DNA from: Dioscorea cayenensis subsp. rotundata
Lineage: Eukaryota > Streptophyta > Magnoliopsida > Dioscoreales > Dioscoreaceae
DNA length: 64,000 bases
Reading direction: 5' to 3'
Assembly: GCF_009730915.1 (NCBI RefSeq)
Contig: NC_052475.1
Span: forward strand, 21,138,285-21,202,284
Shown here: one piece after another, positions 10,408 to 59,815 of the stretch
How the letters are laid out: each line of letters starts with the position of its first letter
Numbering within the stretch: position 1 is the stretch's first letter
Position numbers and translations under genes: made by a program
The notes under the pieces: generated by a model
What the model saw: the letters and a program-made list of their open reading frames with translations, nothing else
The model's database searches: none
Told to the model about the DNA's origin: nothing

Positions 10408-10908
10408 TCATATATATAACTCATTAGTAGCACTACTTTGTGGCATGGTCTCAGAAAAAGACCACAAACTACCAATGCTTGCCATGCTTGAATCACCACC
10501 AATATGATCTCCAATCTCTTGCATGGAAGTATCACTAGAACTTGCAAACCCCAACTCCCACAACAATGTATTCATCTCTCCATTTTTCATATGCAAACCA
10601 GTCAGGAATGTTAATGTTGCTACTCTCTTGGCCAGGAGAGGATTTAGAGGAGACTTCATTGAGATCATTGAGGAGTTCTGAGATAAAGGTCTTGGATTGA
10701 TCAATACTATGATCAATGGCTGGAGTTGGAGTTTGAGAGGCTTCTGTATCTTCTGCAATTGTTGTCACCTTCTTCTTTAGTTTTGTGTTCCAGTAGTTCT
10801 TTACATCATTGTCTGTTCTTCCTGGAAGATGAGAAGCAATGATAGACCACCTATGATACATATATGTAAACAAAAACTTGATTTAGAGATTGAGGAATTA
10901 ATTATATG

Positions 10909-22809: not shown

Positions 22810-23809
22810 NNNNNNNNNNNNNNNNNNNNNNNNNNNNNNNNNNNNNNNNNNNNNNNNNNNNNNNNNNNNNNNNNNNNNNNNNNNNNNNNNNNNNNNNNNN
22901 NNNNNNNNNNNNNNNNNNNNNNNNNNNNNNNNNNNNNNNNNNNNNNNNNNNNNNNNNNNNNNNNNNNNNNNNNNNNNNNNNNNNNNNNNNNNNNNNNNNN
23001 NNNNNNNNNNNNNNNNNNNNNNNNNNNNNNNNNNNNNNNNNNNNNNNNNNNNNNNNNNNNNNNNNNNNNNNNNNNNNNNNNNNNNNNNNNNNNNNNNNNN
23101 NNNNNNNNNNNNNNNNNNNNNNNNNNNNNNNNNNNNNNNNNNNNNNNNNNNNNNNNNNNNNNNNNNNNNNNNNNNNNNNNNNNNNNNNNNNNNNNNNNNN
23201 NNNNNNNNNNNNNNNNNNNNNNNNNNNNNNNNNNNNNNNNNNNNNNNNNNNNNNNNNNNNNNNNNNNNNNNNNNNNNNNNNNNNNNNNNNNNNNNNNNNN
23301 NNNNNNNNNNNNNNNNNNNNNNNNNNNNNNNNNNNNNNNNNNNNNNNNNNNNNNNNNNNNNNNNNNNNNNNNNNNNNNNNNNNNNNNNNNNNNNNNNNNN
23401 NNNNNNNNNNNNNNNNNNNNNNNNNNNNNNNNNNNNNNNNNNNNNNNNNNNNNNNNNNNNNNNNNNNNNNNNNNNNNNNNNNNNNNNNNNNNNNNNNNNN
23501 NNNNNNNNNNNNNNNNNNNNNNNNNNNNNNNNNNNNNNNNNNNNNNNNNNNNNNNNNNNNNNNNNNNNNNNNNNNNNNNNNNNNNNNNNNNNNNNNNNNN
23601 NNNNNNNNNNNNNNNNNNNNNNNNNNNNNNNNNNNNNNNNNNNNNNNNNNNNNNNNNNNNNNNNNNNNNNNNNNNNNNNNNNNNNNNNNNNNNNNNNNNN
23701 NNNNNNNNNNNNNNNNNNNNNNNNNNNNNNNNNNNNNNNNNNNNNNNNNNNNNNNNNNNNNNNNNNNNNNNNNNNNNNNNNNNNNNNNNNNNNNNNNNNN
23801 NNNNNNNNN
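22810..23809. other. Assembly gap (1000 N)
   Basis: Exactly 1000 N, the usual fixed-size scaffold join, so the real distance between the flanks is unknown. Any open frame drawn through it is meaningless. Confidence 1.
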
Positions 23810-23956: not shown

Positions 23957-26900
23957 TCAAGGGCAGTACATGTTGCGCCCAGGGCCGCCAAAGTAGAATA
24001 AGGGCTCGGTGAAGAGCTTTCTGGCGTAGTTCTCGCCGCTGTAGCAGTTTATTGCCGGTGTGTACGCGCCGTATGGTTGCGGATACTTGTATGTTGAGGA
24101 ATAGTCCATGATTCTTGGCTTTTGGATGAAGCTGGAGTACCCCCAGTGCTCATTGGCGAAGGCTCCGCTGCCCATGGCAGTGGCTGTGTGTGGCCCTCCT
24201 GATCTTAGCCTCGGCGTGTATACGTCGCCACCCCACTCCACCAGCGTTGCGATCCTGCTCATGCCTCTGAATATCTCCGCTGGCCAGTAACCTACGGTGA
24301 TGTTGTATGCGTATATGAACCACCAGGCTTCGTTTTTGTTGTCCTGAGAATGGTTTTGTCAGGTATGTTTAAAGATGCATGTTAGGTGTTTGTTGAATTG
24401 CCTTGTGGTTTTCTTGAACTTTTTGGGATTAATTTAAAAGTTGTCTTTTTGGAGGGTGATGGGGTGTAGAGTATTGTTTCCAGGAAAGGTTAGACTTTGA
24501 AATTTCTTTGGGTTTCATTCTATTTCCTTATTTATTTATTTTGGCAAAGATATGAGAACTTGTGTTTCTTTAAAGCTAGGCTTTTCTCTTTGAAAATATG
24601 AAGATTTCTTTATTTACTGATTTATATTTGCTGAATTACCTGAAGGTGTCTTTGGTGAAAGAACTACTAATTATATTATTATTTTTCTCTTTGAAAATAT
24701 GGCTGATTTTTTTATTTAATGATGTATTTGTGTTGAATTATCTGAGGTTTTGGTGAAAAGATATCTTCTTGGATGATTTTGAGAACTTGTGCTTCTTAGA
24801 AAGCTAAATCTTTGGAACTGTATGTTTTCTTTTGGTAATATATCTATGTTGGAGTGCCTGAAGATTGGTAAAAGATGTCATCTTGGGTTTACGAGAACTT
24901 ATATGGCTTGAAATGCTAAAACCTTGGAACTATTTATGTTATCTTTGAACAAATGAATATACTTTTAATGATGAAAATTACCTTGATGACTTCGACCGGT
25001 ATCTGGTATTGTGGTCCCATGCTTGTAGAGACAGGCTCGATGGGTGCACCAAGAGTTATCTCATTGCTCAACTGAACGAACCCGGGGCAGAGGAGATCAA
25101 AGCAGCCAAGTGTCTTCCCAGAGTCAACCTAATTCATCAAACAACAATTTGAAAGGTATTACGTAAACATGTCTCTTACTTGTAAATCTATGAACTAGAA
25201 GAGAAGCTCACAGTCCAGTATGTGAATAATCTGGTTCTTCGATCACCATAAACAGAAGGATTCACCTGCAGAAAGAGGTAGTGGCAGTCATGCTTCTTCC
25301 ACATCATGCAATGCGTTAGAACATTAGAATTGACAGAGTACTACAGATGCTGACCATCCATCCTAGCTCAATGCTGTCTGAGTTATTGTAAGGGCCATTT
25401 CTCAGCCACATCTGACCTGTTGTGTATTCATCGTCAGCTTCAACTCGTGGATTCCATACGTTGATGTTTGCTTTTGCTCCAATATAGCTGTAACCTGAGG
25501 TGATCAGTGCCACTGACTGAAATTGAACAATCACAGCAGCCATGTTTGTGTAAGTGCCACTTTTTTAAAATTTCCTGATTCAAAATAAATATTATATATA
25601 CTTACTGAATGGTAATTCTCAACTCCCTTTTGCAAATGTATGCCCATTTAGATTGATTTCCTGTTTTGTGATCTCATGGTAGTTTTTCATCCCATATCTT
25701 TCAATAGATGGTGCATTTAGCAAGTGATGCTTCTGTACTCTGCGAATGGGAACAGTTCCCTCAGGGCAGCTGTCCCTTCCTATGCCACAATTGATATATC
25801 ACTGACGATGAATTTCTATCTAGTTTAGTTGCCGAAGATGGTTTGGTTCTTCTGCGTAATAGATCAATGTTTGGTGTCTGGAAGAATAACAAAATGATTT
25901 GTGAAATGCACATTCGTATAACTAAGCATAGAAATTGTCAGAATTCACATGCTATTTCAAGTCATAGACATTGATTCTGCTTTGAAGTTGGTTGGAACTT
26001 TGACTATATATTTTTGGCCATCTTTTGATTATTTTCTTGTGATTATTTTTAGCTACTGAAATGATGTTTAAGGCTTCATAGTTTGAACATTTGTCATGAG
26101 CATCAAGATTGGAAAAACAAAGTGCTAGAGCTAAATTTGGTTTGGTGCTGTCAAAATAAGTTCATGGGTCTGTTCAGGTCAGGTCAAGCTAAGCCCGACC
26201 AACTTGTTATACTCAACCGAACTCAATCTGTTTATTTAACATTTTAGGAACCCAAACCTGAATCTACCCGAGCCGACATGCCAAACTGTTTGAAGCTACA
26301 ACCCATGTAACTCATGTATAATAAACATAGAGACACTAAAGAAACTTGTAAATAAATTATGTCTGCATAAAGTTTTCTTCATTCACATTTATTTGCCTTA
26401 ATAAAATTAAGATCCTTACATATATGTATGTATACATTAATTTTATTTATAATTATAAAAATTAATGTATTTACATTATTACATTTTGGTTTTTAACTAT
26501 TGATAAAATAAATTTATATTTTTCAAAATGTATTTATCTAAATAATTATTATACTAATACATGATACTAAAAAAAAACAAGATATTTAAGCGTGGGGGGA
26601 AGGGTAACTGTCATAAGAGCATGCATATATAAGAATCTGACTTATTATCAATGATGAATAAAAATATTTAATTTAATATAGTTATAAATCTTATAAGGCT
26701 TTATACATGTCATTAGGCGGGTTTGTTAGTGTCCACAATTGGGCTCATTGCTTGACACCCTTAAATTCAAAGAAAGCAAAAGGTAAAACTTAATATTTCT
26801 ATGACACAAAATATGAGAAAATTTTGACTCTTTTCATTCTACACACATGAAAATTGAATTCATACATAAGACGAGTGCATGGATAGTTGTAGATCTTAAT

Positions 26901-27335: not shown

Positions 27336-27360
27336 GTGTGAATAATTAACTTAAATGAGT

Positions 27361-27533
27361 AAATTCTGCTCACTGTATGATGTAATAAGATTTCAACTTG
27401 GTTTCTTGTTGTGCAGGATTATATTTATTTCTGAATATTATATAATTAAATCCTGTTCATTGTATGATTTGGTAAGATTTCAAATTGGTTTCTTGTTGTG
27501 AAGGATCATATTTATTTCTGTATATTCCGATCA
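27361..27533. repeat. 87-bp tandem duplication upstream of the neprosin-like gene
   Basis: Two copies start at 27361 and 27448. Both contain TTTCAA(C/A)TTGGTTTCTTG followed by a TATTTATTTCTG motif. They lie 90-260 bases upstream of the ATG, in what should be the proximal promoter. Confidence 0.8.
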
Positions 27534-37658: not shown

Positions 37659-40600
37659 TTAGGAAGCTCGAAAACCTTGAAAGAATAGAGTGAGGAGATG
37701 GAGGTTGACAGCATGAAAGGTAAGCTTGAAGGCAGGAGATGCCCAGGTCTTTGGAATAACATGCATGCTAGGATGACCCAAACTGAAAATCAATTGAGAA
37801 ATGCAAGTGTTCCAAGTATTCAAACGATTGCGACCAGCAGAATGCCCCAACATAATGAGTCTATATGATGCTGAATTATTGATGAAGATATGCTGAATCA
37901 TAATCCCAACATCAAAAGCCTCTTAAAGAGCAATGTTGATAGCCATGAGTTCATATTTAGTCTCGCTATCAGCTTGAATTGGACAAGAATATGCCAATAA
38001 AAGCTTGTAATTAGAAGTAGCACAATAGAAACCAGCACCACCTACCTACGTAGCAGCATTCCAGAAACTGGAAACAAACAGGTAAGGGCCATCTGCAGAA
38101 GAAAAGTTGTTAAGAAGTAATCTTTTGCCAAACAGGTCTACATTAGCACAAGAGAAATCAAAAACATGAACATAGGCTCGACTGGCAATAACCTGGCAAG
38201 AAACAGCTAAATCTCGGAAAATTTTATCACACCTATTCTTCCAAATAAACCACGCATTGGCAGCAATAACATATTTACAATGAGAAGATAGAGCAGCATT
38301 AACAATCCAATCCCCATTACAAAAGCCATTAAGAGAAGACAAATCGAAACCCGTCTTTAATCTAATTTGATTCCAAATTGCATGAGCTTTACAACATGAA
38401 TATAAAAGATGTTCAATAGTTTCCACTTCAAGATTACACATTGGACATAAAGAACGAGGATCCAAATCAATAGAGTAAAGGTAGTCAATAGTACTAATTC
38501 TCCCTTTGAAAGTAAGCCAAAATAAATACATGACTTTGGGGCAACTTTATGATCCCAAATTTTATTCCAACCAATCCAATTATCATTCCAGCAAGGGTGT
38601 TGATTTAGATGCTGATAAACCTTAGCAGAAAAGCTACAATTAAGAGACATGGAGGACCAGATCCAATGATTAACCTCTGACGTATCAATAACCCCCAACT
38701 TGGGAGTGAAGTGGTCCACATAATCTCCAAACAACATGCCCAATTTATGAAAGTCCCCAATTGCAATTGTTAATGAAATATGTAATGTTGATCCTATCCA
38801 GATCCATGTTAATATTAATGAAAGTAGGCTTGTGAGATAAAGGAATTTCAGAGCACCATGGATGAAATAAGAAGGAAGTTTGGTTCGGGGTTTAAAACAT
38901 TAAGTCTCAAATTTGGGATTAAGTTTAGAAGCAGTGTAGCAAAGACCCCTGAAAAACCAGGAGCATCCAGCTGGAATAAAATCCCTCCACATGTTAATCA
39001 GACCATATTTGCTATGAAGAATATCAACCCAAAGGAAGTCCTCATTGTTAATATATTTGAAAATGTTCTTGCCCATAAGAGAATGCTTAGCAAGAAGGAT
39101 GTTTCTGATAGCAAGACCCCCCTTAGATTTTTGGAATAGTAAGATCATTCTAGGAAACAACGTCGATGCCCTTTCCATTGCCACTTTTACTCCAAAAGAA
39201 CCTCCTAACAATTCTATTGATTTCCTGGAGGACAGAATCATAAACAGGATAAACAGACAGATAATAAGTAGGGATAGACAACAACAAAAGAAGAATCAAT
39301 GAGAACGAGCTTTCGCAGCAGGAGATAGCTTAGAGTGCACCCATCTGGAGCATCGAAATCTAATATTATCAATGATGGGATTGAAGGCAACTTTGGCTAA
39401 TCTTTTAGGACAAATAAAAACTCCAAGATATTTAATGGGAAAGGAGGCAACTGACGGTATTAAGAATGGAACAGATGCTCTTAGCAATTCTCTTGTTAAT
39501 CCAAGTAGGAAAATAAGTAGCAGATTTAGAAACATTAGGAATTTGCCCAGAAATTTTACCATATAAATCAAGGCAAAGACTAATGAATCTAGCAGCTTTC
39601 TTAGAGGCATGAGAAATGAGCACTAGATCATCAACAAACATGAAATGATTAAAATTATGTCTGAGCTGAGGATTAAATCCAGGGATCATGTTGTGTCTAA
39701 GAGCAAAAATTAAACATGGAAGTTAAATTTTGAGAAACCAGAATAAAGAGATAAGAGGAAATAGGATCGTCTTGATGAACTCCTCTAGCAGGTTTGATCC
39801 AGGAAGTGGGACGTCCATTGATAAAAAAAGAAAAAAAGGTAGAACAAAGACACGTCCTAATCCAAGAAATCCAAATAGAATGGAAATTCATTTTGGTGAG
39901 AGTGGCAAAAATTGCATTCCAGCTTATAGTGTCATACACTTTCTCGATATCGATCTTAATAAGCATCCTAGGGGGGTCTTTGCTATCATTTTCTAAAGAG
40001 TGGATAACCTCTTGAAGAGCAATAATATTATCGAACAGACAACGACCAGGAACAAAACCAACCTGTTCCCTCCCAATGAGTTTAGGAAAAACAATTTTAA
40101 GTCTATTAGCTAGAATTTTAGATATGATTTTAAAGCACACGTTACATAAAGAAATAGGCCTAAAATCAAAAATAAGTCTAGGATTATCTTTCTTAGGGAT
40201 GAGGGTAATAAAAGTTTTGCCCCAGGATTCAGGAATAACAGAGTTAACAAAGAAATGGTTGATAGCTTCATAAAGACGATCACCAATATCATTCCAAAAA
40301 AACCTATAGAACTCAGTGTTAAAACCATCAGGACCAGGACTTTTACCCAAAGGGAGTTCAAAACAGAAAGCAGAACTTCCTCACGAGTAATGTTTCTGAC
40401 CAGAAAATCACAATCAACAGAAGAGAGTTGAGGAAGATCATTAGGAAGAGTGTTTAAAAGATCAGCAAAAGACTCATCAGACGGGTTAGACCAAAGTTGA
40501 GAGTAAAAATTTAAAAAAGCATTCTTTATACCATCACGATCAGAAAATGAATTATTGTTTAAATCGCTGACCTAAGAGATGGAATTAAAATGCCTACGAA

Positions 40601-41726
40601 TCCGGGTGATGTTGTGAAAGAGCTTGGAATTTCTGTCACCATCGTAGACCCATTGTATATGTGCACGATGAGCCCACTTGCTAGAATTTTGCCTATGAAG
40701 AGCAGCAAATTTAGCATACAATTCCTCTAGACGAGGCTGGGTATCTGCATCAAAGGTGTCAAAAATTTCCAAGGAAGCAATATTCTTTTTAGTATTAATA
40801 ATGTCCAAATCAAGAGGGTTAAGACCATATCTACACCAGTTCCTAATACTATTACGAGTTTTAGAAATGAGATGAGTAAAAGCATGTATAGGATTACCAT
40901 TAGGAGAGCTATCAAAGATTTTACGAACAACATTATGACATACAATATAGTCTAACAAAAAATTATTAAAATGAAAAAGATTGACTCTACGATTATAATT
41001 AAAAGAAATAACAAGATGAAGAGGCGCATGATTAGAAAAGATTCTGGATAAATGCTTAAGAGTATAGGAAGTACACTTAGAAGACCAATCCAAATTCACT
41101 AAGCACCTATCAAGTCGGGCCCATCGTCTAGCCGTGCCCACTTGATTGTTGCACCAAGTGAACCTAGGTCCAGAGAAATGCAAATCAAGAAGATTATTGT
41201 CTTCAATGAAACGTAAAAAATGATGAGCCTTACGAGCGTGATAAGAGAAAGAACCACCTTTATGTTCATCACGCGTAATGATAGAGTTAAAATCACCAAT
41301 AATAAGCCAAGGAATATTAAAAGAAGAGATTCTAGAGAGCTCATGCCACAAAGAACATTGAGAATAAAAACGAGTAGAGTTATAAATAACACAAACAACC
41401 CAATTAATGTTAGAACCTGTAGAAACGACCATATGGAGAGCACGCCGAGAAATAGCTAAAGGAGAAACATGACCAATAGATTTTTGCCATGCGACCAATA
41501 TCCCTCCCGAAAAACCATATGCAAGAATCACAGCCAAGCTCCAAGAGGTTGGTAGCCTGTTACAAAATCTATTGACATGGTCTTCATTAGCTCTAGTCTC
41601 AGTAAGATAAATCATTGTTAGATTATATTTACGAATAAATCTAAGAGCCTGAGAAGAGGTATCCCTCGCAGAGATGCCCCTACAATTCCAGCAAACAATG
41701 TTAAGACCAGTCATGAAGGCATTCAT
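37659..41726 (-). pseudogene. LINE ORF2 (endonuclease / reverse transcriptase / RNase H), broken
   Basis: The likely start is the Met at 41726, just before Leu-Asn-Ile-Val-Cys-Trp-Asn-Cys-Arg-Gly, the usual ORF2 opening. The apurinic-type endonuclease (41720-41000) keeps Leu-Thr-Glu-Thr-Arg, Ile-Gly-Asp-Phe-Asn-Ser and Ser-Asn-His-Ala-Pro-Leu. The frame stops at 40572. The RT resumes at about 40361 with Ser-Pro-Gly-Pro-Asp-Gly-Phe, Thr-Leu-Ile-Pro-Lys-Lys, Leu-Ile-Lys-Ile-Asp-Ile-Glu-Lys-Val-Tyr-Asp and, after a stop at 39697, the Phe-Val-Asp-Asp site near 39640. The zinc-binding domain (38046-38531) has Cys-Pro-Met-Cys and His-Leu-Leu-Tyr-Ser-Cys. RNase H (37659-38040) is weak. At least four stops or frame shifts are visible. 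The enzyme once nicked target DNA and reverse-transcribed the element's RNA in the nucleus. Confidence 0.85.
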
Positions 41727-42350
41727 AAATGGAAATGAAAAATAAAAACACACAAGAGATAGAAGACAAAAGGCGAGAGCCAAGGAGAACCAAGCCTCAG
41801 AATTCCTTATCTCCATTATCAACTCTGCCCTTCTTGAGCGAAGCCAGAACATCGTGTGCTCATTTTCGAGTCAGAGTTTCTTACGAACTTCCGATTGAAA
41901 CTGCACTAAAGTCATCACATCATCTGGTTCATCATCTTCATACATCTCTTCTTCATTGCCTTCAGGGGACACCTCGTCATCATCCAGAGTATAGTCAAGA
42001 GGGTCCCCATGTAAGGGCCTTGCCAATGCCATCGACGAGCATCAAGTGAGAGGAGTTTGGAATAACAGTCTCCTGGCTAGATTTCAAAGACAAGGAGGTA
42101 TGGATAATGAGGAGGCGAAGAAGAACGGGTGAGATTGACCTGGTTGCCTCGAGAAGCCTAAAAAATTGTCAAATTAGTGTGGGGGAATAGTAACGGGCTG
42201 CTAATCAGAGCGTCTGTCAGAAGACAAATCTCGAGAAGCAGCAGAGATGGAGTCTAGAGAAATCTCTGGCAGGCAACTTTCAGCTAAAGTATTATCTTGC
42301 AGTGGAATGTCAGTAGGTGAAGTCAAATCAACTTTAATATTTTCTGAGCG

Positions 42351-43486
42351 TTAGGCAGGATGAGCGAGGAAGCCACCACGACCTCTCACTCGATACCCTC
42401 CACGTGTACCTTTACCAACAGTGTCATGGGGAGGTGGAACGTTGGGATTCCCATTGACTGCCTCATCCGAAGTCACGTGATTAGTACGAGCATAGCCACC
42501 TCGACCACGGGCTCGACTACGCCGGTGGGCAACCAACATCCATGGCCCGAAATCCAACTCCGATGAGGAATCTGAAGGCTCCATCGAGATATCAATATTA
42601 GAAGAATTAGGGCTAAGAATTGACCAATTCCGATGTCCGAGCAGCAGTAGCTGTACTAGAATCGGGTCCTACCGCCGGCCTCCGATGGGCTCAGAAGGGT
42701 GGCTGAACCCCATTGTTTCTAGTTTCCGCCACTCGAGGACACGAGTTTGTACCATGCCCGACCATTCCGCATGAATAGCAAAACGTAGGAAGCCTTTCAT
42801 ATAAAACTCGAACAAAGATACGATGCAAAGCATCTCCAATCCAGAAGCCATGACATAAAGGTTTAGATAAATCAACCTCTAAACAAACTCTTGCAAACTT
42901 AGAACGAGTCAAAGAAATAGTAAGATCATCCACTTTGAGCAAAGGACCAAGATGGGAGGTAATCGATTCAAGGGAATCACCATCCCAGAAATCCACCGGT
43001 AGATTGTGTAGCTGCACCCAAATGGCAGCTGTATTAAATTTGGCGAACGTTGGCTCGAAGAACGGCTTCCATGGGGATAATTGAAGAATAATTCCGTTGA
43101 TGGACCACGACCCATCCTGAAGAAGTTTCTGCATAATCTCCTGAGATCCACATTGAATCAAAAGCAAACCATTAGGTAGATCGGAAATTAGAATCTCACC
43201 GAAGTTGGCCCATTTAAACAAAAGGAATTGCTTCACTTGCTCAAAAGACGGAGGTTTCCGAAAAAAATTTGCCATAAAGAGAGTGTTGGAACTTCATACG
43301 AGCTCTAGAAAGGGCTTCATCGTTAATCTTGATAAACTCCGATGAAAACTCCTTAATTTTGTGCAAGAGTTCAGGGTTGTGGAGAGGAGAGCTAGCAATG
43401 GTTCGGGTGGCCTGAGAAGCGTCTTGAGCCCGAGACTTGGGAGGAGGTTGCTGCAAAGAAGGGTTTTTTTGTCCCCCGCGTGCCAT
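42351..43486 (-). pseudogene. LINE ORF1 (DUF4283 RNA-binding protein with zinc knuckle), frameshifted
   Basis: Starts at a Met near 43486 (Met-Ala-Arg-Gly-Gly-Gln-Lys). A frame shift occurs in an A7 run at about 43260, where the reading frame moves and continues with Gly/Asn-Phe-Phe-Arg-Lys-Pro-Pro. The DUF4283 domain spans about 43240-42780 (Trp-Val-Gln-Leu-His-Asn-Leu-Pro-Val-Asp-Phe-Trp). The CCHC knuckle Cys-Tyr-Ser-Cys-Gly-Met-Val-Gly-His-Gly-Thr-Asn-Ser-Cys is near 42750. After a stop at 42691, the Arg/Gly-rich tail (Arg-Ala-Arg-Gly-Arg-Gly-Gly) resumes at 42584-42351. The product would be the nucleic-acid-binding partner of ORF2. Confidence 0.85.
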
Positions 43487-45370: not shown

Positions 45371-48300
45371 ATGAACGGGAAGGAAGCGGAGGATGCCATG
45401 TCGTCGACGGCTCTATCCCCGCCGCCGCCACCGCTTGAGTGGAAGTTTTCTCAAGTGTTCGGCGAGCGGACGGCCGGAGAGGAAGTGCAAGAAGGTATGG
45501 ATTCTTAAACTCATCGAGATCCCAGAGATTTAGCTCTTTTATACTTGGTTTTATACTTAGATCGTGCGTTATGAACGTTTGGTTTCTGATTGTGTGGTGG
45601 ATTTCGTTGTTATAGTTGGGATTGTTGCATTGTTCTTCTGTTTGGTGGATTTCTGTAAAAATTTACTACTTTCTTAGATTCATCATGTTTAAGCTTGTTT
45701 TTCATCTCAAGAAAAGAACGGAACTTGGTTGGAGTTGGAGTGTGGCAGGATTCCTTAAAGAAGAAAGCGTGATTAATGCATAATCTATTTACATATAGGG
45801 AAGTTTAGAGGTTTATTCCAAATATTGTCGACTTTTAACTACATTTCTGGTTAACTTGTTTGTTGCATAGTTTCACCAATAAGTCCTATAGCTTGAGCAG
45901 AGTGGGCCTCGGATACTGATTTGAGAGCAAATTCTGGAGAGTTGGATGTGGTTGACAACTAATACCACTTGACTGTCAGTGAACTTCTTGCTGTCCATTT
46001 AGATCTCTTGCTGGCATGACATGCACCATATGCCCTGATTTTCAAAATAGTGACACATTCCTACCTTGAAAGGAGAATAGCTTTTGTCAAAGTCTGAAAA
46101 TAAGGAGCAGCTTACTTGTTATTGGGATGACCTGTTCAATAATCCTCAATACATCTGGCTAGATAATGTAGACTCAAGAAAATTAGCACAATGGGACTTC
46201 CATTATTAAGTTCATGATTTGCATTTTCCTTTTGCTTGCTATTACAAAGGCTTTTTGGGATTGGCAACATTTGGTATTTATAGGGTTCTGCATAGTGATC
46301 CCAAGGGTTTGCAATTCAAATATAAGAATAGAAAGTGCCATTGAGGGCTTTCTAAGTATTCAATTGTCTCATGGATTGCCAAATTCACCATTTGGTTATG
46401 GCGTGCTCCACAGGCTTTCAAGATTAATTAGAATGGATGGATTACCTTTTTTGGGTTTTCACAAACTATTGCATTTTGTCTGGCAATTTTAAGGTTTTTC
46501 TTTATCTCTCTTGCTAGTCGACAAAGTGCTTAAAGCTGGAATATGAATATCTTCTATTTCAGTTCATGTTGAGTTGGTTTGTAGCACTTGTTTCTGTTCA
46601 TTATTTTAGCACTTTCTTATGACCTTGTGATGTTTTATTTGTCGTAGTTGACATTATCTCAGCAATAGAGTTTGATAGTGGTCGACAAAGTGCTTAAAGC
46701 TGGAAGATATATCTTCTATTTCAGTTTATGCTGAGTTGGTTGGTGGCACTTGTTTCTATTCATTATTTTAGCACGACCTTGTGACATTTTATTTGTCGTA
46801 GTTGACATTATCTCAGCAACAGAGTATGATAGTGGTCGACAAAGTGCTTAAAATTGGAATATGAATATCTTCTATTTCGAGTTCATGCTTTGAGTTGGTT
46901 GGTGGCACTTGTTTTACGTTCATTATTTCAAAGACTTTCTAACGACCTTGTGATGTTTTTATTTGTCGTAGTTGACATTATCTCGAGCAATAGAGTTTGA
47001 TAGTGGTCGACAAAGTGCTTAAAGCTGGAATATGAATATCTTCTATTTCAATTCATGTTGAGTTGGTTTGTGGGACTTGTTTCTGTTTATTATTTCAACA
47101 CTTTCTGATGACCTTGTGATGTTTTATTTGTCGTAGTTGACATTATCTCAACAATAGAGTTTGATAGTGGTCGACAAAGTGCTTAAAGCTGGAAGATATA
47201 TCTTCTATTTCAGTTTATGCTGAGTTGGTTGGTGGCACTTGTTTCTGTTCATTATTTTAGCACTTTTTGACGACCTTGTGACGTTTTATTTGTCGTAGTT
47301 GACATTATCTCAGCAACAGAGTATGATAGTGGTCGACAAAGTGCTTAAAATTGGAATATGAATATCTTCTATTTCAGTTCATGCTGAGTTGGTTGGTGGC
47401 ACTTGTTTCTGTTCATTATTTCAGCACTTTCTAACGACCTTGTGATGTTTTATTTGTTGTAGTTGACATTATCTCAGCAATAGAGTTTGATAGTGGTCGA
47501 CAAAGTGCTTAAAGCTGGAATATGAATATCTTCTATTTCAATTCATGTTGAGTTGGTTTGTGGGACTTGTTTCTGTTAATTATTTCAGCACTTTCTGATG
47601 ACCTTGTGATGTTTCATTTGTCGTAGTTGACATTATCTCAGCAATAGAGTTTGATAGTTGTTGACAAAGTGCTTAAAGATGGAATATGAATATCTTCTAT
47701 TTCAGTTCATGTTGAGTTGGTTTGTGGCACTTGTTTCTGTTCATTATTTTAGCACTTTTTGACGACCTTGTGACGTTTTATTTGTCGTAGTTGACATTAT
47801 CTCAGCAAGCAGAGTATGATAGTGGTCGACAAAGTGCTTAAAATTGGAATATGAATATCTTCTATTTCAGTTCATGCTGAGTTGGTTGGTGGCACTTGTT
47901 TCTGTTCATTATTTCAGCACTTTCTAACGACCTTGTGATGTTTTATTTGTCGTAGTTGACATTATCTCAGCAATAGAGTTTGATAGTTGTCGACAAAGTG
48001 CTTAAAGCTGGAATATGAATATTTTCTATTTCAGTTCATGTTGAGTTGGTTTGTGGCACTTGTTTCTGTTCATTATTTCAGCACTTTCTGATAATCTTGT
48101 GACGTTTTATTTGTCGTAGTTGACATTATCTCAGCAATAGAGTATGATAGTTGTCGACAAAATGCTTAAAGCTGGAATATGAATATCTTCTATTTCAGTT
48201 CATGTTGAGTTGGTTTGTGGCACTTGTTTCTGTTCATTATTTCATCACTTTCTGATGACCTTGTGACGTTTTATTTGTCGTAGTTGACATTATCTCAGCA

Positions 48301-51300
48301 ATAGAGTTTGATAGTAGTCGACAAAGTGCTTAAAGCTAGAATATGAATGTCTTCTATTTCAGTTCATGCTGAGTTAGTTTGTGGCACTTGTTTCTGTTTA
48401 TTATTTCAGTACTTTCTGATGACCTTGTGACGTTTTATTTGTCGTAGTTGACATTATCTCAGCAATAGAGTTTGATAGTGGTCGACAAAGTGCTTAAAGC
48501 GTTAATATGAATATCTTCTATTTCAGTTCATGTTGAGTTGGTTGGTGGCACTTGTTTCTGTTCATTATTTCAGCATTTTCTGACGACCTTGTGATGTTTT
48601 ATTTGTCGTAGTTGACATTATCTCAGCAATAGAGTTTGATAAATCTGGGGACCATCTGGCCACTGGTGATAGAGGAGGGCGTGTTGTTTTGTTCGAAAGG
48701 ACAGACGTGAGAGATGTATGTGTTTTCCATAGTTTGCCATGACCATGTTTGTTCCGTTTCTGTAGTTGTCAGCATTTTTTTTTTTTTTGATGAGTAGCAT
48801 GCACGACGAAGAGAGTTGGAGATGTTAGATAATCCAATCAGCAGGCATCCTGAGTTCCGTTACAAAACAGAATTTCAAAGCCATGAACCAGAGGTGATTT
48901 TGGAAAACTATTACATTTGATTGGTAAATTGGCATCTGCTTGTTCTGTCATATACATTACCAGCTTTGCCGTTTTCTTTTCAGTTTGACTATCTGAAAAG
49001 TTTGGAGATAGAGGAGAAGATTAACAAGATCCGTTGGTGCCAAACCACAAATGGTGGCCTTTTTCTCCTTTCTACTAATGATAAAACAATCAAATATTGG
49101 AGGGTAAGCCCATTTACTATCAAATTTCTTAAGTTCTACTATAGTTGTTGTTTGACTTCAGGATGATGCGGTTTGGATTTCATAAACCATTTTATGTTTC
49201 GGCTTGAACCATATAATAAAATGTGCTATTGAAGGTGTATCTCCACTTCAAAGATGAATCATTTACAATTTTTTTTTCACTTGCTTCTTTTGCAATTTTT
49301 TTGGCTTCAATTTATGCATCATTTACCTCTGTTTTTCTTTCACAAGCATTGCATAAGAGTTTATTTATTTTTGAAATTTTTATTTTGTAGTTATTGTGGA
49401 TAATTGTCTATGATAAAATATATTGGATAAGTTCTTGTGGTTGTCTTACTTTATGATTGTTCTTTACAGATTTTATTTCATATCTTATATTACTTATAAC
49501 TACATTCGTCACATGACTTGGAATGCTTATATGATAAAGCATAGAATTTGTGTTCTTGTTGACTCTCTGTCATGCCTCCATTTGTAGCTGCAATATTTTG
49601 TGATGTTGGATCTCAAGAGTTCTCTAGTGCTTGTCACAATTTATAATTGTACAGGTACAAGAAAAGAAGGTGAAAAGAATTTCTGAAATGAATTTGAGTT
49701 CCGCACAAGACGCAGGTGATGGTAGCTTTGCTAGCTCAAGTGCATCAAATCCAGCGGCTTATCTTCCAAATGGTGGATGCTCAGGAGGGGCTTATTCTTC
49801 TTTTAGCAATGATTTCACATTTCCTCCTGGAGGGTTCCCATCGCTGCGATTGCCCAAGGTAGTTGTACTCAAACTAGAACCTACTCCCTTTGTTTTGAAT
49901 TAGGTGCCATTTAAAGGAAATTCCAAAATAGTTGTTGCTTTAGAGTTCCAAGATAAAGATTTATTTATTTTTTCCAACTTTACCCTTATTCAATTTAATA
50001 AGTTATATATATGAAGAAAGTAATAGTTATAGTCCCAAGAAAAAGATATGGTTCCAAGAGAGGAATAGTTTAGTAATTTGGTTGATTTTTATGTTAAATT
50101 TTAGAAAGTTTAATGCTATTTTTAATTCTTGTGCAACATCCATAAATGACATGTATTTTGGAATGGAGGGAGTAAATATTGAGTATTACTGTTCAAGCAA
50201 CAATCATTACTTCCAATCAATATTTGAATAGAATATACTGTATACTGACATTCTACTCAGGAACCCACTGCAATGTATAGAGTAAGGATTGTTTTCTTTT
50301 TGATTGTCTTGTAACATCCTCTATGCAATTCCTTTATCCAAATCAGTTCAATGTGCTTATTAAGATTATTGTTAAATGCCCTAATAGTTTTTCCTTGTGT
50401 CTATGAAAATGTATAGGTTACAAGCCAGGAGACTAGCATTGTTGCAAGATGTCGGAGGATATTTGCTCATGCTCATGATTATCACATCAATTCTATTTCA
50501 ACTAACAGGTTTATGTCTTCACCTCTACTTTTATCTAGTAATGCAATTCTTCACTTTTGATGTAGCAAAATAAGATAATTCAATCAGTAAAGTAAAATGA
50601 CAGGTAAAAACATATTACTCTTAAGGACAGTATAAAAAAATTAAAAAAATAAAATAAAATAAAAGTGAGAAAAGAAGCCCTTAAGATGTCTTTTATCAGT
50701 AACCAATGGAGAATCATAATCTTGGGCAAGGTAATGAAAATCTGCTAAATGATAAGAAGGAATAGAAAAGAGGTTATTTGTAAAGAAGGAAGATTAAAAA
50801 ATATTTTCAGGTGATAGATTTAAGCAAAAATAAGGAGAAAGAGTGGAGAGGTATTGAGAGTATTAAAACATGAATTCTACATGAAAATTTGCATGTCAAG
50901 TTTTGGGATATTGACATAGGCCAATCTATAGGCATTTGACATTGAATTTCTTGCATTGATAAATCTGTTTCGTCTAGGAAGAGATGTGGACTGTTGGATG
51001 GATAAACTCTCTTGAAATGAAAAAAAAACAACAGACCTGACAGTCGCTGGCCTCCCTAGTTAACCTTATTAGCTAACTTAAATACCTTCTCTTTCTAAGG
51101 CTTTGAAAATATATGACGTTTGCTTCTGGTTCCACTTATATTAACTTAGTTAACAACTTGCGTTTATTAATGTGCTAAACAGGCTTTTATGCGGATGGCA
51201 TATTGTGTGTGTGGTTGTTTTCCCTTGAGTCAAGTGACTTACACAGGAATGTGGCAGTTCATTTGGCAAGTGGTGTAAAAATCTAGAAATTTCTTCTGAT

Positions 51301-54300
51301 TGTATGTGACCAATTCTGCTCCATGTTTGACCTGATTTTACATGGAAAAGGTTTAGGGTGACTTGCATCAACCTGTTATTGATATGGATCTGTTAAGTCA
51401 TCATTTGGTGTGATTCCTCAACAGATGAAACATTATCTCCAACCAAACTTTCGAATTTCTTTCCTGTTCCACAAGTGTTCTTTCTGGAGAAGTGCTTGTT
51501 TAATACTTTTGTAGGATGCAAGTTGTCATGCTTTTGTTTATATGGTACATGATAATTTATTTTCTATTCTTCCAATTATCCTGCAATTTAGTTGATTGTT
51601 TCTATTATGCTCTATGTTGAATTAGGGACTTATATACATATTTGATGGCTATATTAAACTACTATATTTATTTGAGGGACTCTTGGGAGCTTTTATTTAG
51701 GTGCCTTTATTGTGTTGATGTTTTGGGCAGGTTGACCTTTGCTAATTTCTCTTTCCGATCATGATTTGCAAATAACATTTCGGCATTTCCATTGCAGTGA
51801 TGGTGAGACTTTCATCTCAGCTGATGATTTACGTATAAATCTTTGGAATTTGGATATTAGCAACCAAAGTTTTAACATTGTTGATGTCAAGCCTGCAAAT
51901 ATGGAGGATCTAACTGGTAAATAATCTCTCTGATGAACCTGAAGGTTGAAAGTTAAATTCAAGGTTCTATGTCCTTATCTTTATACCAGTCAAACTTCCT
52001 AATGCCCAAATATTTCTATGAGTGCTTATCTTTTTGTTGCTAGTCATAATAGAATTTTGTTGCTAAATAATAGAATTGAAGGTTGAAAGTTAAATTCAAG
52101 GTTCTATGTCCTTATCTTTTTACTATGAGTGCTTGATTAATTTTGGTGCATCATAAAATAAAGACATTTTGTTATTTGTTGTGGTTTTGCTATTTCTCTG
52201 AGAGTTGGTTGGGAAACTTGAGATTTAGTTCATAGCTTATAGTTGATACTTGATACTTGATACTTGATACTTGATGAAGTCTTTCATTGCAAGCAGGAAA
52301 GTTTTGTTGATTTATCTTTTCTGTTTCCTTGCACGCCATAATTAAAATAATTTAAATAAAACCATTCAGCAAAGGCTGTAACCTGTAAGCCCAGGGGGCC
52401 TATGCGTGATTTGACTAGTTTCTTTACTCGAACTAAGCTCCTCTATTTTATCTCTGAGATGAAAGTGAATTGAAATAGTTAGAAAATGAACTGGGATTTA
52501 AAAGAAAACAGGTTTAAATATATTTCTTTTTTCATTTCATTATGGTTTATTAGAAATTGTGGGGGCCATATGCATGATACTGAAATGTGGGAGTGGAATT
52601 TCAATTAAGCATTAGTCTAAATTTGTTCAATTAGAAATTAATGTAGAACGGTTAAAGTGAAGTAGCAATCTGAAAATGAGATGACTTTATTTGAACTTAA
52701 TATATACCTTGGCATTTGGTGATGGTTCCAGGCTTTCAGTATAGTGAGTTTATCTAACTTAGTTGTTGCTTTGTTTTTAAATTTTAAATTCAATCCATGC
52801 CGTACATATTGTTTGGTTTGAAATATTCAAACAAGTTGAATTAACAATGTAGAATCTGATTCATTTTTTTTTTCAGGCTTAATATAATTTCGCATCGGTA
52901 GATAGAGATAGTGTGATTGGAATAATTTTGCAATAGTTCTATACCTGTGAAACAATGATTTGTTTGTTGATTGCCTGTGGTTTTATCACAAGGTTTTGTG
53001 TGGATACTCTTGTAATGACCAATGTGCTATGTCATTAAAGAAGAAAGTCAAACAGAAACAAATCTCTAGTTCAAGAAAAAGGCCCAAATTTACGTTCGTG
53101 TGGGTTTACGTGCAAGTGTGGTGCATATGCAACTACTCGCCGTTGAAGGAACACAATTATGTCTTGTGTAAATATGTATGAAGTATGCAGTTTGCATGAG
53201 TCTAGTGTAGTGGATGACAATCAACATGAGCTGGTAAACTGTGGACCTTCTTGTCTTTGAAAATATAATAAATGCATAATCTTTTGTTGGAAAGGACAAC
53301 TTTCTAGCAATTCTTTAGGGGAACCTAGCGTGGCATATTTCTTGTTTGATTGTTTCCCTTAAGAAAAGTTATTAGAAGTTGCAAATCCTGAATATGGGCT
53401 GCTGGAAAGTACCTGTATTTCACACTGTTGGATCATTACCTTTGGAGCCATTCTTTATTCTTGTTAATGGCTTTTTTCTTCTTAGTATGGACATCTGGTA
53501 TATAATCCTTTTATATGCTATCAGATCGAGTAAAATCAGGGCTTCTAAAATGGAACTTGTCTGTTAGGATAGCCTTAAACCTTTTCATGATGGACAGCAA
53601 TTTGTGAGATAAATTTTGGCTTGTACATTAGGTTCTTGTTGTCATTTTGCCTTATCTTTGTAGGCAATTAATGTTTTTGAAGATTGCTTTTTGTCTCATT
53701 TAAGTTTCTTTAAATAAAAATGGTGGTTTACCAAATATTACTTACAGGATTTATTTAGCGTGTTTTTATCTGCTGTTTTCCATCTAGGTTCTAGTATTTT
53801 CTATTTTGTTGAGATGCATAGTGTCATCACATCTTGTACACAAGACATATGTTTTTTTATACAGGGGCACTTCGTTAGAGGGACAGTTGGTGAACTGTTC
53901 TGAGTACTTTGTAATTGGGATCCATTTTTTTTAAATACTTTCATTGTTTATGCTCATGTAAGCTTCCCTTCTGATATTTGCTTGGAGTTGAGCTGTCTGT
54001 TGGACTTCAGCTGGAAATTTTACAGTCAACTCTATGAATTATGTTTTCTGATTCATACGTACATTTGTGATTTTGTGCCTGCAGAGGTCATAACATCTGC
54101 TGAGTTCCACCCTGTGCATTGCAACACATTAGCATATAGTAGCTCAAGGGGATCCATTCGACTTATTGATCTGCGTCAGTCAGCTCTATGTGACAACCAT
54201 TCACAATTGTGCGTTATTTTTCTAAATCTTATGGAATTTTATTTTCCTAGGCTCAAGCAGGATACCAAATAGGAAAATCTTGATGATGGAAATGCTCATA

Positions 54301-57300
54301 ACTGACACATCTCCGCTTACAGGTTTCATGAACCTGAAACACCTGGCTCAAAATCCTTCTTCACAGAGATTATAGCCTCAATTTCTGATATCAAGTTTGC
54401 GAAGGATGGCAGGCACATCCTCAGCCGTGATTACATGACTCTTAAGGTTACATTATTTTTATCTTGATCTTTTAGCTTTTATTTATTTTGGTTAGTGACA
54501 AAGAGATATTTTTTGCATGACTCATATTGTGAGAAATTAATTGAATCTTTAATGGAATATCCGAATATCACTATAATATTGTTTGAGAAATTTGATTTCT
54601 GAACTACTTCAAAATATCGCTGCTTGCTAGATTAGAAAAATACATTCTTTTAAGGGCTTTGCTCTCTTTTTAATGTGTACATCTTTTTGTTGCCCCAAGT
54701 GGTACTGGTTTCTGTGTAACTTGAAATGTGAAGATGATGGTCTCATGAGTTTAGACTTCAGACGATACCAGTGGTGAGAATGTGACATTATGAATAAAAT
54801 ACATCTCTTATTTTTTCTTTTTCATAACTTGCATGATCGAGTACATAGAATTAGTTGGAGTGGATGGACAGGATCAGAAATAGTCAAAGAGAACTGAAGG
54901 CAGTATCCTAGTGGGAGTTGACAACAATAGTAGTTGCACATCTTCTTTTAGGCTATGTTTTACATCATTGATGTCAGACAACATATATGTAGATGGTGGG
55001 TGACTAGGAAAGTGGCATGTGAAAAACTATGCGCTCAAAAGTTTGAAAACTTAAGGATTTTAGTAGAACAATCTGATCATTAGTCCACTAAAAGACAGGG
55101 TTATTCGCTCGCTTAAGTGCCCAATCGGGGTGAGACGAGGCGCCATCAAAGAAGAGCTACCTAAGCGAGTGCTTCAGCTCAGGCGCAAGGCAAAAAAGCA
55201 AGAAAAGCATTGCCTTTGTTAGTTTCTAGTTTTTTACATTTTTAAAATGCTTTTTAGGGAACTATAATAAGTGCTTTTTAGGAAATATAAACAATATACC
55301 TGGAAAGTGTAACAATTAAGAAGATTGGTTTTTTATTTTTTCAAAACAAATTAATACAACTTTTGGGAATATGGAGACTTTTTAGGAGAGAATAAAACAA
55401 AGAAAGAAATAAAAAAAAAAGAGATGAAAAATACAAGAAACTTCATAAGAAAGCTAAAGGAAAAATTGAGATATTTTATGTGAAAGATAAGGAATTTTAG
55501 TTGGGAAGGAGTTTTAGAAGAATATTGAAGCAACATATTATGTTTATGTTTTTATTTTGGATCTTCAAATATTTTTAATTGATGATTATTATATTAATTT
55601 AAGTTCAATCTTATGCTTTCATTGTTGTTGTTGTTGTTGTTTTTTTTTCCTTTTAAATAGCGGTTCATGTCACTCAGGCGAGTGCCTAGGGTGGTGTTTA
55701 GCGCATCAGGCGATTTACATTCTCATCGCCTCAAGGGCGTCTAGCGCTTCTAATTACATTGCTAAAAAGTTTGATGATTATTACATAATTTGCCAACAAG
55801 ATCTATTCAACCCATTATTATGGCCAAGCATTATATAATCAGATGGGTATAAATGAAAATTCTGAAATTCAGATGGTTGAGGTTCATTTATTCTTAATTA
55901 TTATTTTTTATAATCAAATAAGAGTAAAGCATTGCCTTGTGTTGTTTCAGTTTGTACACCGCCTATTTTTTGTATGTATTAGTATAAAAAAGAAATGCAA
56001 GTTTATTGTACGGTCGAACCTGATAAATTTTTAGTCTAATCCAATCACCAAATGTCAGGGTCTCATTGCACAATTTGGCCAATTTTCATAATTAAAAAAC
56101 AGTTTTGGTTGACTGGGCACTTTGGGCCTATTTAAAGTAAAGCTGTACCTAACCCACCATTGTGACCATTTGAGATTAAAACATGAACAGATTGAGTCAG
56201 GCAATGCCAAATAAGGGCCTAGTTGGGTACCTCCCCAAACTTCAGAAAAATATTTCCTCCAGGTATCTACCATGATAGTTCATGCCATAGGATGGCATGT
56301 TCTTATTGTTCCTGTTATCCTTGCTTGGTAGTCTTTATTTCTAGCTCAGCAATGTAATGTATAATTGGCAATAGTGAAACTTGTATACTCTTGCGACATG
56401 TAGGATGTCGTACTTGTCTTGTATTTGAGCTTAGAAGTTCAACTTGTTTTTGTGAAGAAAAATTTTATATCTTTTGAGCTGTATGCCATGTTTTACTTGC
56501 TCTTTAAAGCTTGCTTGTTCTATCCTCCGTGTATCAGTTATGGGATGTAAGCATGAACTCTGGTCCAGTTGCGACGTTTCAAGTCCATGAATATCTAAGG
56601 CCTAAGGTAAGTTCATCTTTGCTTTACAATAATTCATTCAAAATTAGCTTGGTACACTTTGTTTTGTCAGGGCTAGAATTTGTTTATGTCAGTTTCTTCT
56701 TTGCAGCTGTGTGATTTATACGAAAATGATTCAATCTTTGATAAATTTGAATGTTGTTTGAGTGGGGATGGATCCCGGGTAGCAACTGGTTCTTACAGGT
56801 ATAACTTTTGGCATAGCCAATTATGTCTTACGAACTTGTTCAATCCTGAATTTACTTTTACACAAAGTTTATCTTATTAATTTTATGTTTGGTTGTGCAA
56901 TTGCAGCAATCTTTTTCGTGTATTTGGCTGTGTTCCTGGAATCACTGAGGCAACAACTTTAGAGGCTAGTAAAAATCCAACGAGGTATGTCTATAGCAGT
57001 GACCATAATTTATTCACACCCTTTGTTCCAGTAAATGTAGAACATTACCTGATTATGAACTTTTATTCATGAAAATTACTATCCTCGGTTCATTGTTCTA
57101 GTGCATTTGACATTGTTGTGAGCCATTGGTCAGTTACGGAAAGTAAAAAGTTGGGTGACTTGTTAATACGAATGCTAAGCTTAACACCATTGGGAAATTA
57201 TTGAAAATTGCTTTGTGTCATTGTGTAGGAGGCAAGTACAAAACCCAGCAAGGCCGGCAAGATCTTTGGGTGGTTTAACCCGTGTTGTGAGAAGAGGTAT

Positions 57301-57504
57301 GTGGTTAGTTTTTCGGACTGTTCATTCTTATGGCTTGCATCTCACACCCTTGTGTGTGTGTCTCTCTCAGGAGCTGAAAATGCAGGCCTTGATGCTGCGA
57401 ACAACTTCGATTTCACAACAAAGTTGCTACATTTGGCATGGCATCCTACTGAGAACTCAATCGCCTGTGCTGCTGCAAACAGCTTGTATATGTACTATGC
57501 TTAA
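45371..57504 (+). CDS. PP2A regulatory subunit B (B55 type), WD40 protein, complete
   Basis: Fourteen exons: 45371-45494, 48612-48715, 48798-48893, 48984-49103, 49655-49858, 50417-50508, 51798-51916, 54085-54208, 54323-54446, 56538-56606, 56707-56798, 56907-56984, 57229-57296, 57371-57504. All introns are GT-AG, all phases agree, and the 1548 coding nt give 515 aa, the normal plant B55 length. B55 is the targeting subunit of trimeric protein phosphatase 2A; a seven-bladed WD40 propeller selects substrates. Visible signatures: a Pro-rich N-terminus then [60 protein letters not shown]. The plant-specific insert rich in Ser/Gly is exon 5. Intron 1 (3117 bp) is mostly a tandem array that repeats the exon-2 acceptor. 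Confidence 0.96.
46517..48641 (+). repeat. Tandem array of intron-1 tail plus exon-2 start, about 13 units of 164 bp
   Basis: About 13 head-to-tail units. Each starts GTCGACAAAGTGCTTAAAG, runs through a CACTTGTTTCTGTTCATTAT block and TTTTATTTGTCGTAG, and ends with exon-2 sequence TTGACATTATCTCAGCAATA plus GAGTTTGATA. The acceptor-proximal junction first falls at 46647/46648 and last at 48611/48612, where the real exon 2 continues. Twelve intervals cover 1964 bp, mean 163.7. Decoy units leave exon 2 after codon Asp and reach an in-frame TAA within about 20 bases. The array appears to have arisen by tandem duplication with one breakpoint inside exon 2. Confidence 0.95.
51941..52121. repeat. Duplicated 42-bp segment in intron 7 of the PP2A gene
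   Basis: A perfect direct repeat starting GAAGGTTGAAAGTTAAATTC occurs at 51941-51982 and about 52080-52121. This suggests a local duplication of about 138 bp, just after exon 7. Confidence 0.8.
52242..52276. repeat. Short tandem repeat (TTGATAC)n
   Basis: Five head-to-tail copies of the 7-mer TTGATAC, the last degenerate, in intron 7 of the PP2A gene. Confidence 0.85.
55095..55755. mobile_element. GGCG-rich non-autonomous element in PP2A intron 9
   Basis: Both ends are rich in AGGCG/CGCCT motifs, such as GAGGCGCC at 55138 and CGCCTCAAGGGCGTCTAGCG at about 55727. Reverse-complementing the right end gives a partial match to the left end, so the two form imperfect inverted termini around an AT-rich core with a (TTG)n run at 55624. 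This type of sequence recurs in plant genomes as MITE-like repeats. Boundaries and superfamily are uncertain. Confidence 0.4.
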
Positions 57505-58549: not shown

Positions 58550-59815
58550 ACTATATATTAATTTTATCCCCTTAAAATCTTCCCATCCAAATTTTTCTTT
58601 AAGGACCATTTGCTCATTTCCGGTTGGTTGAGTAATTTTTCCCCTAATTTTTTTACATATATACCCTAAGCAAATGTTATTATTTGCATAAATGCTATCA
58701 AACTTTTTAAAATTGATTTATAGTAATTAATAGTCATTATTTTTGAAGTTAGTACTATATAATATTAATAATAAATATTAAGATTGTATAAATAAGTAAT
58801 TATTCTATAATTTTTGTTAATATATCATATTAGGATAAATATAGGGTTACAATTGTTGAATCTGCTTAAATCACCTCTCATGTATATAATTTATTGCAAA
58901 GATTTGATGTGATCCTGCGAGTACACATCATGTGAATTTGCTTACATCTTGCATTTAGTGATTTTTTTTTGACTTTTTATGTACTTATATATGAAACAAA
59001 ATAAAAAATTATTAATCTTATCCCCTAAAAAATTTTCCATGCAAGCTTTTCTTTAGAGGAACATTTGCCCATTTCCTATTGGTTGGGTAGCTTTTTTTCC
59101 TAATTTTTTTTACATATATACCCCAAGCATATCTTATTATTTGCATACATGCCATCAACCTTTTTAAAATTGGTTTATAGTAATTAATAGTCATTATTTT
59201 TTGAAGTTAGTACTATATAATATTAATAATAAATATTAAGATTGTATAAATAAGTAATTATTCTATAATTTTTGTTAATATATCATATTGGGATAAATAT
59301 GGGCCACAATTGTTGAATTTATTGAAATCGCCACAATTATTGACTCTGTTGATTTGCTGACATCTTGACATTAAGTGATTTTTTTTTACTTTTTTATGTA
59401 CTTATATAGGAAAAAAAATAAAATAAAAATAAAATAAAATAAAAAATTATTAATCTTATCCCCTAAAAAAAATCTTCCCATCCAAGCTTCTCTTTAGAGG
59501 AACATTTGGCCATTGCCTAATGGTTGGGTAATTTTTTCCCCAATTTTTTTACATATATACCCCAAGCATATCTTATTATTTGCATACATGCCATCAAACT
59601 TTTTAAAATTGGTTTATAATCATTAATAGTCATTATTTTTTTGAACTTAGCACTATATAATATTAATAATAAATATTAAGATTGTATAAATAAGTAATTA
59701 TTCTATAATTTTTTGTTAATATGTCATATTGTGATAAATATGTGCTACAATTGTTGAATCTTTGTTGTATATAATTTGTTGCAAAGATTTGATGTGATCC
59801 TGCGAATCTGCACCT
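58550..59815. repeat. Three tandem AT-rich units of about 440 bp
   Basis: Copies begin near 58558, 59012 and 59448 with TTATCCCCTWAAAA(A)...CCATSCAA. Each contains ACATATATACCC, a TAATTAATAGTCATTATTTT block and TAATAATAAATATTAAGATT. The first and third share the tail TTGCAAAGATTTGATGTGAT. No coding content. A non-coding satellite-like or element-derived array. Confidence 0.85.

Follow-up and report, generated by a model that had tools for sequence, protein, structure and literature searches.

The window analysed here is a 64,000-nucleotide stretch of the genome of the yam Dioscorea cayenensis subsp. rotundata (NCBI RefSeq assembly GCF_009730915.1, contig NC_052475.1, positions 21,138,285 to 21,202,284 of the forward strand), and all coordinates are those of the window. 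Its plus strand contains a complete gene for a PP2A B55 regulatory subunit (45371 to 57504), whose 14 coding exons join into a single open frame of 515 amino acids, so that the gene is otherwise intact, as an original prediction made from the sequence alone had held. Intron 1 of this gene carries a tandem array with twelve extra copies of the end of intron 1 and the start of exon 2; this is confirmed by repeat detection and by comparison of the units. The twelve extra copies are called decoys below, and the thirteenth, last unit is the true copy. The features are arranged as follows:

45371 to 45494, plus strand: coding part of exon 1 of the PP2A B55 gene, from the gene model; donor AAG/GTATGG
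45495 to 48611, plus strand: intron 1, 3117 nt, carrying the array, from the gene model
46517 to 48480, plus strand: the twelve decoy units, all of which combine the intron tail and its AG with 30 nt from the start of exon 2
46647 to 48496, plus strand: stretch in which 12 hairpins could form across the unit junctions; GTTGACATTATC, starting at the G of the decoy AG, would pair with GATAGT and, beyond a bulged base, with GTCGAC of the unit that follows
48481 to 48641, plus strand: unit 13, the authentic boundary, from unit comparison and the gene model
48612 to 48715, plus strand: exon 2, 104 nt, from the gene model; donor GAT/GTATGT
48716 to 57504, plus strand: introns 2–13 and exons 3–14, from the gene model; stop codon at 57502–57504

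The original prediction placed about 13 tandem units of about 164 bp at 46517 to 48641, and this is borne out by Tandem Repeats Finder (TRF) and by the unit comparison. TRF describes the array with a period of 164, 13.0 copies and 90% matches, and in a second row with a period of 493 (three units), 4.3 copies and 94% matches. The units start at positions 46517, 46681, 46835, 47006, 47170, 47332, 47496, 47660, 47825, 47989, 48153, 48317 and 48481. Eight of the extra units are 164 nt long, the rest being 154, 171, 162 and 165 nt. In a typical unit, 131 nt of the intron end, closing with AG, are followed by bases 1–30 of exon 2 and by a three-base junction (G, T and then G, T or A). The intron tail, the AG and the exon 2 start are present in all 13 units, with unit 1 preceded by ...CTTGCTA and unit 13 alone running on into exon 2, which is the organisation that had been proposed. 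The first exon base of the decoys is located at 46648, 46802, 46972, 47137, 47299, 47463, 47627, 47791, 47956, 48120, 48284 and 48448, and that of the true copy at 48612; the acceptor positions listed beforehand, from 46648 to 48612, agree with these computed ones. The extra copies account for 1964 of the 3117 nt of intron 1 (46648 to 48612), which would be 1153 nt long without them.

That the array is an assembly artefact, or has been given a wrong copy number, is very improbable. Unit 3 (46835–47005) does contain several unusual extra bases that are absent from the other units, for example CGAG for CAG and CTCGAGC for CTCAGC, which reflect either sequencing error or local change, and the excerpts of one paper on lancelets report that an array of the comparable kind known there as a "mirage" was aberrantly assembled in a draft (PMC3087553). 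Against an artefact, the units can be told apart (81–99% alike), their order has a block structure, there is no N in the array or anywhere within 46401–48800, and the array lies inside a contig (C5) with the complete gene around it.

To judge by its sequence, the array is a product of the gene's own intron-exon boundary. The same genome contains two B55 paralogues (C17 and C20), which have their first intron at the same position (around 0.83 and 0.96 kb long, read from alignment coordinates) and a single exon 2 start; TRF found no array at the first intron of either. As the boundary is single-copy in both paralogues, the array is the derived state. In blastn alignments, the exon start of the units matches the single boundaries of the paralogues; the match takes in 14 nt of intron tail in C17 and, with unit 1, about 51 nt in C20. 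A search of the 584,211,761-base source genome (2249 contigs) with the last unit and exon 2 as query, in which counts are lower bounds, gave at least 15 matches, namely the 13 units and exon 2 of the two paralogues. Dispersed satellite DNA was rejected, since this search, with its lower-bound counts, placed the array at the B55 locus only; elsewhere in the window there is one weak 20-nt match. A protein-coding repeat was also rejected, there being no open reading frame of 50 or more amino acids wholly inside the array on either strand (from a list of frames of at least 40 amino acids) and 164 not being a multiple of three, and so was a tandem exon duplication, because a unit lacks a good donor and contains just 30 nt of an exon that is 104 nt long.

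Mean unit identity is highest at a lag of three units (0.944, n = 10), compared to 0.908, 0.910, 0.914 and 0.909 at lags 1, 2, 4 and 5, respectively; the pair 6 and 9 reaches 98.8% identity, the pair 4 and 7 97.0%. As similarity thus peaks at a distance of three units, part of the array has expanded in three-unit blocks. Nine alignment columns separate unit 13 from the consensus of the decoys, three of them at the junction. The longest terminal branches are those of unit 13 (the longest of all) and unit 12, while the branch of unit 1 is not long. By identity, the least similar to the rest are units 2 and 3, though they are inner units, and not unit 13.

The encoded B55 protein is full-length, with 80–91% identity to the 120 matches listed (from 4598 hits among 8000 scored candidates). 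Among the listed matches, a protein of Dioscorea zingiberensis is closest, with 91% identity over the full length, and three further listed Dioscorea rows have identities of 81–85%. Skipping of exon 2 causes a frameshift and an early stop. When exon 1 is joined to a decoy instead, a stop codon follows within 17 codons in all twelve cases. An in-frame TAA had been predicted for each: the stop is indeed always there, and it is a TAA in nine decoys and a TGA in three (units 3, 7 and 8).

All twelve decoys keep the AG of the acceptor. Residues -16 to +2 of the true acceptor are letter-identical in eight of the twelve decoys and differ by one letter in units 2, 3, 6 and 7. With a matrix built from the other 12 introns of the gene, the true acceptor scores 4.8 and the decoys 3.5 to 6.4. 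A second acceptor-like site (CTATTTCAG), present in ten of the 13 units, scores 7.5 to 8.8, above the exon-edge site. The motif which we take to be the candidate branch point differs among the copies, as does the predicted structure around the acceptors; together with the additional acceptor-like site, this does not bear out the view that the 13 acceptors are equivalent. Accessibility of the branch region is a weak discriminator (0.66 in the true copy, 0.27–0.68 in the decoys, with units 10 and 11 at 0.68 each). Downstream of the acceptors, the last copy stands apart, which supports the special role that had been given to its context. The donor of exon 2 scores 8.2 (7.0 in a leave-one-out calculation) and the best of 198 GT dinucleotides in the array 3.9, while the GC content over the 104 nt after the acceptor is 0.45 in the true copy and 0.34–0.38 in all twelve decoys.

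The interpretation we favour, and regard as probable, is that of a mirage-type minisatellite spanning an intron-exon boundary, in intron 1 of a plant PP2A B55 gene whose transcript is still spliced to 48612, chiefly by exon definition. Regular splicing of exon 1 to this position is what we infer from the intact frame alone, and exon definition would be the likeliest reason why the gene still works. Exon 1 would be spliced to 48612, the one acceptor with a complete exon behind it; this exon is richer in GC and ends, 104 nt further on, in a good 5' splice site, so that only 48612 should be definable as an exon. Use of a decoy would lead to a premature stop and probably to nonsense-mediated decay, and a hairpin between each decoy and the next unit may help to mask the decoys.

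Several points weigh against this interpretation. An acceptor transcribed before its competitors should be favoured kinetically. Two of the 13 real donors of the gene score below 3.9, the value of the best GT in the array, and 93 of the 198 array GTs reach the score of the weakest real donor; with real donors in this range, weak donors within the array, and hence cryptic decoy exons, could escape the matrix. The splice-site matrices were built from 12–13 sites of one gene.

The putative hairpin across the unit junction comprises 12 standard base pairs, possible in all twelve decoys and not in the true copy, because the second strand is supplied by the next unit. In the RNA, GUUGACAUUAUC, starting at the G of the acceptor AG, would pair with GAUAGU, which spans the end of the exon fragment and the junction, and with GUCGAC, with which the next unit begins; one base between the two is bulged. 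For the 51-nt element from -3 to +48, this stem is the minimum-energy fold in each of the twelve decoys, with energies between -10.3 and -13.3 kcal/mol; the true copy continues as GATAAATCTGGGG, and its equivalent 51-nt element reaches -5.0 kcal/mol without the stem. Compared to 500 shuffled sequences, the z-scores are -2.4 to -2.6 for the four decoys tested and +1.4 for the true copy. In local folding calculations, the accessibility of the AG is 0.04–0.26 in the decoys and 0.66 in the true copy, the decoy AG being less accessible because of the 12-pair stem. Across all 15 combinations of temperature and window, no decoy AG is as accessible as the true one, the lead being small when the window is at its widest or narrowest. 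The hairpin can form according to these models and would be a new, testable feature of the array.

Random boundary duplications were simulated 1040 times, 200 of them for intron 1 and the remainder at 14 further boundaries with 60 apiece. About 0.5% produced an energy gap of -8 or more, and 1.7% a decoy accessibility of at most 0.26 combined with a true-site accessibility of at least 0.5, a figure that rises to 7% for intron 1 alone. With the twelve decoys aligned across the junction, parsimony places one change in the 24 sites of the stem, four in the bulged base, three in the 15 sites of the loop and 48 in the 124 other sites. The single change in the stem is from G-C to G-U, by which the pair is kept. 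The probability that 24 randomly drawn sites carry as few changes is p = 0.006, and shifting the stem geometry to any other rotation never gives an equally low count. The test was repeated 24 times, with four offsets, with or without units 2 and 3, and with the hairpin columns included in or excluded from the tree; permutation p-values range from 0.006 to 0.020 and Fisher p-values on variable sites from 0.017 to 0.050. The test of the stem was made post hoc, after 15 window tests. For the strand in the next unit alone, the result is not significant (p 0.12–0.21), and the stems of the twelve decoys contain no two-sided compensatory change. All of these stems descend from one junction.

These results bear on the idea of a self-masking array, in which the junction hairpin would cover each decoy acceptor, the true acceptor would stay open for want of a further unit, the stem would be kept by selection, and masking would silence the decoys besides exon definition. 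The pairing of all twelve decoys, the lead of the true AG in every setting, the difference in energy between decoy and true elements, the low rate of change in the stem compared to the sites outside the hairpin and the rarity of so large an energy gap among simulated duplications all speak for it. We nevertheless consider it unlikely. When 48 to 300 nt of flanking sequence are included on either side, nine to eleven of the twelve decoys keep the lower helix in their minimum-energy fold, so that one to three lose the stem; which of units 5, 6, 8 or 10 show a low pair probability for this helix varies with the context. Working acceptors are themselves mostly predicted to be paired: among 14 of them (12 introns of this gene and two of the paralogues), 13 have a mean AG accessibility no higher than 0.33. 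The evidence for selection is weakened by the post hoc nature of the test, by the non-significant result for the next-unit strand, by the absence of two-sided compensation and by the common ancestral junction. The title of a paper by Liu et al. (1995) reportedly counts against the masking of acceptors as well. According to the excerpts of a study of Arabidopsis nuclear RNA by selective 2'-hydroxyl acylation analysed by primer extension (SHAPE), spliced and unspliced events do not differ at their 3' splice sites, a null result that speaks against masking, and it is open branch sites that have an effect (PMC7784297). By that measure, the true copy (0.66) is no better than units 10 and 11. The same excerpts contain nothing on how an occluded acceptor fares against an open competitor (PMC7784297). 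Masking would be a helper at most. The more general proposal that a boundary minisatellite carries its own silencer, with the duplication junction completing a hairpin over the decoy acceptors, the last copy left open and the stem kept during expansion, we regard as doubtful; if true, it could hold as a general rule that decides whether an essential gene tolerates a duplicated boundary.

Decoy use might instead be a real minor splicing pathway that gives early-stop transcripts, with the copy number of the array tuning the yield of B55 mRNA. Splicing coupled to nonsense-mediated decay is widespread in plants, and all twelve decoy acceptors are intact and lead to a stop. A regulatory array of this kind nonetheless seems distinctly improbable. 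The acceptor core of the decoys is not significantly conserved apart from the stem: in tests of five windows with three row sets each, the four acceptor windows gave permutation p-values of 0.02–0.18 and circular p-values of 0.09–0.16; variability in the fifth window, which covers the branch region, exceeds that of the rest of the unit. For lancelets, the excerpts of one paper state that such repeats give no aberrant mRNA (PMC3902484).

The array can be compared to known systems. In lancelets (amphioxus), minisatellites spanning intron-exon boundaries have been described in the globin genes BflGb6 and BflGb9 and in Adh3, and named mirages (excerpts of PMC3087553). The BflGb6 array comprises the 3' end of an intron and the 5' part of exon 2, in units of 150–160 bp with 81–100% identity, six and three of which are present in two haplotypes; the authors describe globin and Adh3 splicing as regular despite the duplicated signals (same excerpts). 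Mirages are also reported for lancelet Adh, TnC and PGBD5, with no aberrant mRNAs by the authors' account (excerpts of PMC3902484). These accounts of regular splicing speak for the reading favoured here. On its sequence features, the yam array is a plant example of this kind. As far as the excerpts go, it shares with the lancelet mirages the tandem duplication across an intron-exon boundary, the minisatellite unit size and the adjoining authentic boundary; the homogenisation of inner units with exclusion of the edge units is seen in part only. It differs in kingdom and gene, in its 13 units and in their blocks of three, and also in the possible junction hairpin, a structure that the lancelet excerpts do not mention. 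Splicing and length polymorphism have been observed in lancelets, whereas the yam array is known from the sequence of one assembly, in which the genome search showed no second allele. In Drosophila, a survey of intron gain by tandem duplication of proto-splice sites likewise concerns duplications that hold splice signals inside a gene, but there the duplicate becomes a new intron (excerpts of PMC2891723), while the yam array lies inside one intron, with its position the same in both paralogues. A minisatellite in the excerpts of PMC3039753 was rejected as a parallel, being of the promoter type and not of the boundary kind. The claim of novelty made at the outset stands in so far as no plant or B55 case was found in searches of an open-licence collection of papers, which is not proof of absence; it does not stand for the phenomenon as such, given the lancelet mirages.

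Within the reach of the literature searched, the array extends boundary minisatellites from lancelets to plants. It also offers a concrete test of why the spliceosome passes near-identical acceptors, be it through exon definition, the base composition behind the acceptor or the junction hairpin. Cis-competition minigenes with duplicated splice sites are said to have been made by Reed and Maniatis in 1986, acceptor copies reportedly competing for one donor, with exon sequence and distance deciding the outcome. Compared to these constructs, the yam array is natural, has 13 copies and occurs in a plant: a 13-fold acceptor competition of the sort usually built as a minigene sits in a gene that encodes a PP2A regulatory subunit and is apparently intact.

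The remainder of the window contains several minor features. A MYB DNA-binding domain is encoded at 10535–10882 and a Neprosin domain at 23957–24358, both on the minus strand. The stretch 22810–23809 consists of exactly 1000 N and is either a gap or a withheld sequence, and an 87-bp repeat is located at 27360–27526 (1.9 copies, 87% matches). Upstream of the B55 gene, pieces of a LINE-like retrotransposon are found on the minus strand (38046–43293), comprising DUF4283 with a zinc knuckle, a reverse transcriptase and zf-RVT, with a weak endonuclease match under the curated cut-off. About 1 kb past the B55 stop codon, there is an AT-rich tandem repeat (58556–59761) with a period of 457 bp and 2.7 copies.

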